From: Solirubrobacteraceae bacterium | GTDB taxonomy: Bacteria > Actinomycetota > Thermoleophilia > Solirubrobacterales > Solirubrobacteraceae | Length of the DNA stretch: 48,989 nt | Reading direction: 5' to 3' | NCBI GenBank assembly: GCA_017882455.1 | Contig: JADGPL010000023.1 | Span: 1-48,989 of the forward strand | In this document: piece by piece, positions 45,509 through 48,306 of the stretch | Numbering within the stretch: position 1 is the stretch's first letter | Layout of the letters: each line of letters starts with the position of its first letter | The notes under the pieces: generated by a model | Database searches by the model: none | What the model was told of the DNA's origin: nothing | The model's input: only the letters and a program-made list of their open reading frames with translations | Made by a program: the position numbers and the translations under genes

Positions 45509-45789
45509 CAGTTTTGTTACTCACGCGCAGAATCGTGCGCGCGGGCCAGGACATTTCTGCCTGACTCTGCATGTCGCCATGCAGCTCGGACTATATCTTC
45601 GCGGAGGCATCACTCTCCGTGTTCGGCATATAGTCTCTGAGGATTCTGGACTGCTGAACAAGCAATCCAGCCTTTCCTGCTGATTGTCCGCACCGGACGC
45701 ATTTTCACTGCCTCTTGACGAGGCGAGTAGCGCCGGATACTCGGAGTTTCCAGCATATAGCCGAATTTATAGACAGCAACGGTAAATTT
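45509..45789 (-). mobile_element. group I intron A, inserted after 23S position 2604, ORF-less
   Basis: 281 nt between ...GAGACAGT and TCGGTCCC on the minus strand. The 5' exon ends in U and the intron in G, as group I splicing requires. Core elements: GTGCGGACAATCAGCAGG (P4-P5 region, 45671-45696) and the P7 strands CTCAGAGACTATATGCCG (45624-45642) and AAGATATAGTCCG (45587-45599). No endonuclease frame. Confidence 0.9.
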
Positions 45790-46444
45790 ACTGTCTCACG
45801 ACGTTCTGAACCCAGCTCGCGTACCGCTTTAATGGGCGAACAGCCCAACCCTTGGGAGCAACTCCACCCCCAGGATGCGACGAGCCGACATCGAGGTGCC
45901 AAACCGGGCCGTCGATGTGGACTCTTGGGCCCGATAAGCCTGTTATCCCCGGAGTACCTTTTATCCGTTGAGCGACGGCACTTCCACTTGCTACCGCCGG
46001 ATCACTAAGACCTGCTTTCGCACCTGCTCGACTTGTCAGTCTCGCAGTCAAGCTCCCTTAATACCTTTACGCTCTACACACGATTTCCAACCGTGATGAG
46101 GGAACCTTTGTGCGCCTCCGTTACATTTTGGGAGGCGACCGCCCCAGTCAAACTACCCGCCTGGAACTGTCCAGCACCCGGATTCACGGAGTGCTGTTAG
46201 AAATCCAATACACCAAGGGTGGTATCTCAAGGTTGGCTCCACGCCGGCCGCAACCAGCGCTTCAAAGCCTCCCACCTATCCTGAGCGAAGTGCACCGAAC
46301 TCCAATACCAAGTTGTAGTAAAGGTTCACGGGGTCTTTCCGTCTAGCCGCGGGTACTCGGCATCTTCACCGAGACTGCAATTTCACCGAGCTCCTCGTTG
46401 AGACAGCGCTGAAGTCGTTACGCCATTCGTGCAGGTCGGAACTT

Positions 46445-47168
46445 CACGTGTTCTCTCGTTATCCGAGAGCGCAGACTATCCCTTCACCTCACCAAGCACC
46501 TTTAGGAGCGTGGCTTCCGAGTGGCGTCGCTTTCCCAGATTCATCTGGTAGGCGATGCCAACGATCTCTCGCAAACCGACGCGCTGCAGATGGTCTCCTT
46601 GCTCGACCATCCGGCATACGTGCGAAAAGCCTGCACAGCTCTTCGCCTTGTATCCCCTCAAGGGGAAGCGCTCAAAGTGCGGCAGGATGACTCCGATGAG
46701 ATCTCCAATTGATCGCACCTCGTACTTGAAGGTGCGGTCTCCTTTCGACTCTCGGATCCAGCCACAACCAAAGAACGTTTGCAGATCTTCCAGTAGTCCT
46801 AGGTCCTTCTCGTTGAGCGAGAGCGAAAACGAGGGCCTCACCTCGAGGCCGGTTCGTAGCTTCGCCCGGAGGGCGAAAGAGACGCAAAAGCATCCCTCAC
46901 CGTCCGTAAGACCTGTGACAAACCAGGGATCCAGCGGTACTGCTACTCCATAGGCGCCCTGTCTTTCGATGAGGGCCGGCGTATTGCGCGTCACATAGAT
47001 TTTCGGAATCTCCGAAGCGTGACACGCCTCTCCTTTCGGATCAGTCGTTAGGGGGTCACTAGGACTTCCCTCGGGATTGCCCGCTGCCACTTTGGCAGGG
47101 AGGGTTTCCCCGATATGAGCCGGTTCTCGACCGTCTCTCGCGAGACGGCGGGGCAAGTGTTGTTGCTT
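46445..47168 (-). mobile_element. group I intron B at 23S position 1951, encoding a LAGLIDADG protein
   Basis: 724 nt between GTCGGGT and AAGTTCCG. U at the 5' exon end and G at the intron end fit group I. The 5' part has AGTGGCAGCGGGCAATCC then CGAGGGAAG, a P4/P5-type core unlike the sequence in introns A, C and D. GGATAGTCTGCGC near the 3' end may be the P7 second strand. The 1951 site is a known intron site in bacteria (for example Coxiella). Confidence 0.88.
46476..46994 (-). CDS. LAGLIDADG homing endonuclease in intron B
   Basis: 172 residues from a GTG at 46994; the frame stays open upstream through the 5' splice site to a TTG in the exon at 47177 (233 codons), but that part is intron core and not protein-like. 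The single LAGLIDADG motif is WFVTGLTDGEGCFCVSF. LQTFFGCGWIRESKGDRTFK and LIGVILPHFERFPLRGYKAK, then VGLREIVGIAYQMN follow the LAGLIDADG_1 family, which works as a homodimer. Presumed target: the intron-free 23S site around position 1951. Lower GC and codon use unlike the neighbouring genes. Confidence 0.88.
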   Translation of the reverse strand: MTRNTPALIERQGAYGVAVPLDPWFVTGLTDGEGCFCVSFALRAKLRTGLEVRPSFSLSLNEKDLGLLEDLQTFFGCGWIRESKGDRTFKYEVRSIGDLIGVILPHFERFPLRGYKAKSCAGFSHVCRMVEQGDHLQRVGLREIVGIAYQMNLGKRRHSEATLLKVLGEVKG

Positions 47169-47188
47169 ACCCGACAAGGAATTTCGCT

Positions 47189-47936
47189 CTTAACCTTGCT
47201 CGCGATACATGACTGTCGGTATCTCGAGTGGACGTTACGCCCTTGTGTGCGTATCGTCCCTGCATGTCGCCATGCAGATGGGACCATCTCATGATCCAGT
47301 GTCCTGGATCTCTGGCGTATGGCCTCTGAGGATTCTGATCAGTTCAACTCTGGATGTCCTTCGATTCATCGTCTGCGCCAGTTCCGCAATTTCGATAAGG
47401 CCCTGCGTCTCACGATGCAGACCATCATCGATCATTCGCATACAGCAAGCAAAGCTTTCAAAGTCAGCTCGCTTAGCTGTGTGCAGCGGATGAGCCTCAA
47501 AGAACGGAATAACCGCTCTTAGAAGGTCGTCTCGCCGGTTGACGACGAATTGGGCAAGGTGCTCTCGATGGTTGTCGTGGCGCTTCGCCACATACACGCG
47601 CCCAGTACCGAAGAAGCCTTGTAGCTCTTCTAGCGCTGGTCGCCCGCTGTTTGCTTGCGTCACGACAAATCGATGCGCAACTTGAAATCCCGTTTTGTAG
47701 CCTTTCGACCTGTCCGATTTGGTTGTCGGACAAAGCCGATGGAGAAGCATCCCTCTCCGTCTACAAAACCAATCACCCAGCCGAGCTGGATCAGTCTTTC
47801 CTGCTGATTTCCTGCACTCATCGCATTGTCACGGTACCGTCCACTTGGGACGGAACTCGTAGCGTGAGATACTCAGGCGTTCCAGCATATAGCCAAATGC
47901 GCACCGTGCGGTTACCCGCACGGGGGGCAGCGTTCT
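47189..47936 (-). mobile_element. group I intron C at 23S position 1931, with a broken endonuclease gene
   Basis: 748 nt between CTAAGGT and AGCGAAATTCC. Ends in G. Core: GCAGGAAATCAGCAGGAAAG (about 47796-47817), P7 strands CCTCAGAGGCCATACGCC (47314-47331) and GAGATGGTCC (47281-47290). Shares GGCTATATGCTGGAA and neighbouring sequence with introns A and D. The 1931 site is known from Thermotoga and Simkania. Confidence 0.9.
47289..47809 (-). pseudogene. frameshifted LAGLIDADG homing endonuclease in intron C
   Basis: The N-terminal part reads NQQERLIQLGWVIGFVDGEG then CFSIGFVRQPNR in one frame and stops soon after. The C-terminal part continues in another frame as KGYKTGFQVAHRFVVTQANS, LEELQGFFGTGRVYVAKRHD, LLRAVIPFFEAHPLHTAKR to the stop at 47289. 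Joined, they make a normal single-motif LAGLIDADG protein. The shift falls in about 47700-47730. Either the gene is decaying or the sequence has an indel error. The gene begins inside the P5 region of the intron core. Confidence 0.82.
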
Positions 47937-47950
47937 ACCTTAGGACCGTT

Positions 47951-48306
47951 CCTTACTGTTACGACTCGGAAAGCTTCTCCGAGCGGTCGGCACATTTCTG
48001 GCCGACTCTCATGGTCGCCCATGAGAGCGGACTATCTCATCCCACTCTCGGTCTGGAGAGCAGGCTCGGCGTATAGTCTCTGAGGATTCGCAACGCCGTA
48101 AACGCTGAGCCAAGACACCGCCAAAGCGGTTGACCGTCCTGGATCAACTGGACACTGCGTCTTTCCTGCTGATTGTCCGCACCCGGCACATTTTCACGGT
48201 ACCGCCCACCTGTGCCCCGAATGGGGTACTTGGGACGGAACTCGTAGTGCGGGATACTCGGATGTTCCAGCATATAGCCGAGTTTTACAACTACCTCGGT
48301 CAACTG
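47951..48306 (-). mobile_element. group I intron D at 23S position 1917, ORF-less
   Basis: 356 nt between CCGTAACTAT and AACGGTCC, ending in G. Core: GTGCGGACAATCAGCAGGAA (48161-48186), P7 strands CCTCAGAGACTATACGCC (48068-48085) and GAGATAGTCCG (48028-48038). Close in sequence to intron C in its first 130 nt. The 1917 site is known from Coxiella. No plausible endonuclease frame. Confidence 0.9.

Follow-up and report, generated by a model that had tools for sequence, protein, structure and literature searches.

How can a ribosomal RNA (rRNA) gene harbor several large insertions separated by exons of only 14 and 20 nt, and what are these insertions? The question is raised by contig JADGPL010000023.1 of a Solirubrobacteraceae bacterium (assembly GCA_017882455.1), the whole 48,989-nt stretch of which is referred to here as the window. 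Using Rfam models, we assigned positions 45225-48989 of the minus strand to the 3′ half of a 23S rRNA gene, followed by a 5S rRNA gene. By exact matching, with E. coli K-12 rrlB as the reference, four inserts, named A to D, were placed after E. coli positions 1917, 1931, 1951, and 2604, the first three of which span 34 nt of mature rRNA. Our reading, to which we give a probability of roughly 0.88, is that these inserts are four group I introns that would be spliced from the transcript and that appear to represent different stages of the homing cycle.

In the order of transcription, all on the minus strand, the gene consists of exon 1 (E. coli ~1245-1917; 48307..48989; Rfam LSU_rRNA_bacteria and E. 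coli alignment), the 356-nt intron A at L1917 (47951..48306), a 14-nt mini-exon (1918-1931; 47937..47950), the 748-nt intron B at L1931 (47189..47936), a 20-nt mini-exon (1932-1951; 47169..47188), the 724-nt intron C at L1951 (46445..47168), exon 4 (1952-2604; 45790..46444), the 281-nt intron D at L2604 (45509..45789), and exon 5, which extends close to the gene's 3′ end (45225..45508); the exons after the first were delimited by E. coli alignment. Each insert is preceded by U and ends with G, as an earlier note on this DNA had stated. The junctions of A and D are unambiguous, and those of B and C, which could be slid by 2 nt and 3 nt, respectively, were fixed by this U-before, G-last rule. 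A search with the Rfam covariance model Intron_gpI, which the earlier note had proposed as a check, gave a divided answer, with D (71.1 bits) above the cut-off of 50, A (40.8 bits) and B (22.8 bits, mostly in its 3′ part) below it, and no match for C.

The core structure was compared among introns at these and nearby sites, some taken from relatives and others from a scan of 84,980 species with one genome each. Aligned by their core, A, B, and D fell together with 42 other introns (45 rows, referred to as family 1), in which 1039 of 1136 cells (91%) of helices P3, P4, P5, P7, and P8 were paired, against a mean of 78% for shuffled columns and 26-40% for slid registers. Covariation was evident in 186 cells altered on both sides of the pair. 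All pairs of P3, P4, P5, and P7 form in A, B, and D (in A, 6/6 each for P3, P4, and P7), and relative to A, some pairs of P3 and P7 in B are changed on both sides. P8 is the weakest helix of the family (112/170 cells), with 1/5 pairs in B and 3/5 in D as aligned.

Intron C was recognized through its own family of L1951 introns instead of Rfam. Its core consists of P3 (CCGGC/GCCGG, 5/5), P4 (UCGGG/CCCGA, 5/5), P6 (3/3), and P7 (GACU/AGUC, 4/4), the strands having been chosen for complementarity, which makes this control weaker than that for family 1. Anchors were present in 21 of the 28 L1951 rows and absent from seven; P3 was full in every one of the 21, and so was P4 outside L027, which was misread, as was L029, so that C resembles most of its family. 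As judged by their sequences, A, B, and D are members of one ribozyme family and C of another, and the paired P3, P4, and P7 cores with covarying relatives identify all four inserts as group I introns. The earlier note had described two mini-exons among four group I introns, with a P4-P7 core clearly visible in A, C, and D; boundaries, Rfam scores, and core helices bear this out, and B also has such a core. Separately, the L1951 introns of L026, L033, L037, and L040 (Peribacteria/Peregrinibacteria) carry family 1 anchors, unlike intron C, and this site seems, on sequence features, to be occupied by two ribozyme families.

The pairing of intron ends with the exons differed among the introns. 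Intron A can form a P1 of 8 bp (AACUAU/GUAGUU, its U.G pair lying at the splice site) and a P10 of 5 bp (CGGUC/GACCG), and intron D a P1 of 7 bp (GACAGU/GCUGUC, with U.G) and a P10 of 4 bp (CGGU/ACCG). Because P1 and P10 combined were matched by only 7 and 31 of 5000 shuffles for A and D, respectively, chance is an unlikely source of these pairings. In intron B, a short P1 (GGU/GCC, 3 bp) and a P10 (AGC/GCU) are followed by a P2-like hairpin, and the P1 of intron C has 4 bp. In support of B, a P1 start of GCC against GGU was also read by eye in 17 of 27 other L1931 rows, three of the remaining 10 being merged rows. An association of this short-P1 type with an upstream neighboring intron was considered and dropped, since neither type is confined to genes with or without such a neighbor (by eye, no statistics).

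The short exons also bear on the order of splicing, which the earlier note had raised together with the crowding of introns. In the first mini-exon, P10 of A would use positions 1920-1924 and P1 of B positions 1929-1931; in the second, P10 of B would use 1932-1934 and P1 of C 1948-1951. Because neighboring footprints do not overlap, the pairings could coexist, and no splicing order is forced at the level of base pairs, a statement that does not extend to three-dimensional clash. The question was thus a fair one, but no sequence of events is imposed by the exon pairings of neighbors. Introns A, B, and C, whose P1 and P10 pairings occupy different stretches of the 14- and 20-nt exons, could splice independently and in any order. 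The four sites are hot spots, located where the ribosomal subunits meet and in the peptidyl-transferase region, and each intron would be expected to excise by two guanosine-initiated transesterifications, restoring a standard 23S rRNA. Two similar introns around the 23-nt Orf142 exon can skip that exon, according to part of a published account (PMC10136302). Since A and B are likewise related and flank only 14 nt, skipping of this exon may be the main error of the system.

Alternatively, some or all inserts might not be ligated out, being either retained or cut to leave a fragmented 23S rRNA, as with intervening sequences (IVSs) cut by RNase III or with the Simkania intron that is reported to be unspliced. 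The title of a 1999 paper by Everett et al. describes an unspliced 23S group I intron, and the short P1 helices of B and C would fit such an outcome. On the other side stand the covarying ribozyme cores of all four inserts, their U-before and G-last boundaries, and exons that are otherwise typical. The insertion sites also lie in very conserved parts of the 23S rRNA, where retained inserts should be harmful. IVSs cleaved by RNase III are short stem inserts in variable helices, with an S23-type protein or none and with no ribozyme core; the inserts studied here have group I cores and interrupt conserved sequence, LAGLIDADG_1 was the sole Pfam domain found among them, and assignment to this class was rejected. 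We consider non-ligation improbable and retain the reading of four spliced introns.

The apparent stages of the homing cycle were assigned from the endonuclease genes. Intron C contains an intact LAGLIDADG_1 domain (46476..46937; PF00961, 70.7 bits against a cut-off of 23.1, E 2.1e-19) with the acidic LAGLIDADG motif ..GLTDGEG.., in a frame that is open without a stop from 47177 to 46476 and ends within the 3′ strand of P7; by eye, the gene was placed in P8. Solved relatives of this endonuclease are I-OnuI and I-SmaMI, and related genes were found in 8 of 232 genomes of the order, the source genome included. Between this domain and the copy in genome G002 of the same genus, the nonsynonymous and synonymous divergences were dN = 0.043 and dS = 0.372 (dN/dS = 0.12), which indicates, as far as sequence comparison can, that the gene is under purifying selection. 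For comparison, five host genes of these two genomes gave dS values of 0.42-0.68. As the dS of the domain is close to these values and dN/dS is low, intron C appears to have been inherited within the genus, its gene being kept under selection, for homing or possibly for a maturase role.

Intron B carries the remains of a LAGLIDADG_1 gene split over two frames with no single open frame: an N-terminal piece in P6 (47660..47821; frame +2, E 5e-4, 21.3 bits, slightly below the PF00961 cut-off) and a C-terminal piece (47289..47750; frame +1, E 2.6e-12). It is homologous to intact, open endonuclease genes of other L1931 introns. In intron A no endonuclease domain was found, its 88-aa frame having no Pfam match, and the length of intron D leaves no room for such a gene, which is nevertheless present at L2604 in relatives G018, G029, and G011. 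A selected gene in C, a frame-broken gene in B, and the lack of one in A and D would correspond to different stages of the homing cycle.

To what extent are these introns specific to this genome? A 23S match was obtained in 5 of the 24 genomes of the genus, the source genome included. Intron-free 23S genes were found in G013 and G019, and G022 is empty at all four sites; the spliced exons of the window share 98.9% identity with G022 (1062 nt) and 98.8% with G002 of the same genus (1287 nt). This comparison with relatives lacking the introns, which the earlier note had called for, speaks for our reading. Introns occur at 1923 and 1951 in G002 and at 2604 in G018 and G011, and elsewhere in the order at 1917 and 1951 in G161 and at 1923 and 1931 in G099. 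In 23S sequence, the closest rows with a name belong to Actinomycetota (Gaiella FR_16, 86% over 912 nt), which makes an actinobacterial host probable.

These relatives also bear on whether the contig is an artefact of assembly or binning, either a chimera or a minor 23S allele contributed by a different organism. The genome is a draft of 51 contigs, the contig breaks within the 23S gene, and partial scoring of candidates gave no 16S match, all of which would be compatible with such an origin. The downstream order of a murA-like gene, a small glyoxalase-like gene (both names being our assumption), 5S, and 23S, however, is common to the source genome and G002, and the flanking genes show synteny and 81% nucleotide identity with G002 and G022. 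Together with the near-identical exons, and with an intron C that is common to G002 at 91.6% identity and has a dS near that of host genes, this match to sister genomes, some of them intron-free, makes a chimeric contig unlikely; that explanation was rejected, and an artefact of any kind is very improbable.

Several points nevertheless weigh against the reading of four spliced introns. A and B fall under the Rfam threshold and C is invisible to Rfam, which leaves D alone above it. The P1 helices of B and C are no better than those of shuffled sequences (2180 and 1669 of 5000, P10 counted), so P1 pairing is the weakest point of these two introns, which are identified by their core structure, insertion site, and homologues. 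In B, the frameshift might also result from a sequencing error. Since the contig stops within the 23S gene, at base 48989, with the 5′ part (before ~E. coli 1245) beyond it, introns in that part cannot be seen. Genome searches found neither a second 23S piece nor a 16S gene, with 12/24 and 26/67 first-look candidates scored, and their absence is not firm, as a similar search missed the 23S pieces of G018 and G011; a second, intron-free operon may exist, although all eight intron-exon junctions are crossed by the contig without interruption.

We further considered how A, B, and D, as members of one family, came to occupy three sites of one gene. Site-switching of a single intron within the gene, by reverse splicing or endonuclease retargeting, would account for their common core sequence and for the fact that the best matches of A are L1923 and L2604 introns of relatives. 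In a first tree, the L1917 rows were rejected as one clade (approximately unbiased test, p-AU 0.0148), but this rejection was lost after rows from G161 and G011 were added (p-AU 0.0887). The L1917 intron of G161 starts with the same 40-odd nucleotides as A. In the first tree, from which 46 of 92 introns (those without family 1 anchors) and the merged row L025_1923 were left out, constraining the eight L2604 rows together was not rejected either (p-AU 0.154). In the enlarged tree, good support is limited to a few branches (10 of 44 starred, 18 open). Because the core trees are mostly unresolved and the rejection was lost, site-switching is not claimed here; an ectopic origin of A from an L1923 or L2604 intron was not upheld and is kept as a rival that we regard as rather doubtful. 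Equally tentative is a broader model for this lineage, in which 23S positions 1911-1951 would form a dense landing array where one local ribozyme family switches targets among 1917, 1923, 1931, and 2604, and neighbors are tolerated down to an 8-nt exon as their exon pairings do not overlap.

Finally, how unusual is such a density? In the genome scan, which misses some cases by construction (for example, L1951 introns with T as the fourth base), 30 contigs had inserts flanking the 20-nt exon, that is, at both 1931 and 1951. In 9 of these 30, three intron-like inserts were found within 41 nt: at 1917, 1931, and 1951 in seven contigs (L025, L032, L033, L039, L040, L042, and L047, with the 1951 insert of L039 and L042 taken from the scan pattern, as the stored stretch ends there), at 1911, 1931, and 1951 in L049, and at 1923, 1931, and 1951 in L052; the upstream side could not be read in L029 and L046. 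Four or more inserts at recurring intron sites were present in this half-gene in 7/30 contigs (L030, L033, L036, L041, L045, L047, and L049), a lower bound because several stored stretches end early; short inserts in some rows of the Candidate Phyla Radiation (CPR), at 1706-1865 and 2786, were not counted. Group I cores were checked only in the aligned rows of family 1 and of the L1951 family, outside which the inserts at 2262, 2449, 2500, 2593, and 2656 lie. Some boundaries in the divergent rows L025, L032, L036, and L047 are misplaced; L025 and L032 were read again by eye, using motif positions. In L067 (G099) and in L052 (JACPCJ010000096.1), the inserts after 1923 and 1931 are separated by an exon of 8 nt (1924-1931), which is shorter than both mini-exons described here. 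The idea that four introns constitute a record was therefore rejected, as denser genes exist. The unusually dense load described by the earlier note is real and uncommon, but it recurs in other bacteria.

Several further features were observed. In a search of 151 genomes, the intron family was matched in 17, the source genome included, and the loci of 10 of the 16 others lacked a 23S exon; at these ten (L010-L018 and L021), a tRNA-Glu(TTC) gene lies within ~0.9 kb of the Intron_gpI match, and within 230 nt in 7/10. All four relatives that were read (L062, L063, L064, and L067) have an 81-82 nt insertion near E. coli 277-290 of the 23S gene, an apparent lineage expansion on sequence grounds. 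Within the window, the 5S rRNA gene (45010..45126, minus strand) scored 104.2 bits with Rfam 5S_rRNA, and a c-di-AMP riboswitch (2417-2611, minus strand, 51.1 bits with Rfam) lies directly upstream of a 214-aa frame (1762-2406), presumably for an RlpA-type cell-wall protein.

The locus lends itself to a clean natural test of the way in which densely packed self-splicing introns make use of shared tiny exons where the ribosome is very constrained. A single gene appears to show the homing cycle at three stages, sister genomes that lack introns are available for comparison, and the L2604 site, described from CPR bacteria, is extended to other phyla. In practice, primers or probes in this region would be expected to fail on such genes.

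Two contigs from our scan are close in arrangement to the present gene. L047 (Magasanikbacteria, JACTTX010000006.1) resembles it in carrying inserts at 1917, 1931, and 1951 within a single gene, but it has five in total, with 2593 and 2656 added. L049, a groundwater metagenome-assembled genome labelled Acidobacteria (JACQXY010000033.1), shares inserts at 1931, 1951, and 2604, and its L2604 intron is among the best matches of intron D; it differs in having five inserts in the half-gene, with 1911, inside helix 69, replacing 1917, and 2500 in addition.

Published multi-intron genes, compared here from portions of the respective papers, show that the earlier note understated the precedent in referring to bacterial 23S genes with one or two introns. 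Among the matches listed in a literature search of limited coverage, there was no paper on such introns in actinobacteria, which is not proof of absence. The 23S gene of Synechococcus sp. C9 has three introns, at L1917, L1931, and L2593 (PMC1995217), and so shares two sites with the window; all three of its introns have endonuclease genes, 2593 takes the place of 2604, and the portion compared describes no L1951 intron. Three introns are also reported in one 23S gene of Candidatus Thiomargarita nelsonii Bud S10 (PMC4853749), where the portion consulted does not determine the intron type and gives the sites in gene coordinates, which were not compared here. CPR rRNA genes contain up to 16 insertions, with LAGLIDADG_1-coding ones at 1917, 1931, 1952, 2593, 2604, and 2657 (PMC11270868). 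As in the window, these encode LAGLIDADG_1, many are accompanied by group I introns, and many genes have several, whereas the source organism is not a CPR bacterium by its 23S sequence. The CPR site 23IS13, which is 2604 by our reading of the numbering, is called unreported in known bacteria in the portion of that paper compared. The dense load of group I introns is thus real and uncommon, but it is an example of a known phenomenon. A close parallel for the mini-exons is Coxiella burnetii, whose L1917 and L1951 introns are reported to be spliced (PMC4990558), with skipping of the 34-nt exon between Cbu.L1917 and Cbu.L1951 also reported (PMC10136302). In the accounts compared, these introns surround the same 34 nt and belong to two ribozyme subgroups, as in the window, whereas here L1931 divides the 34 nt into exons of 14 and 20 nt and an intron at L2604 is added.

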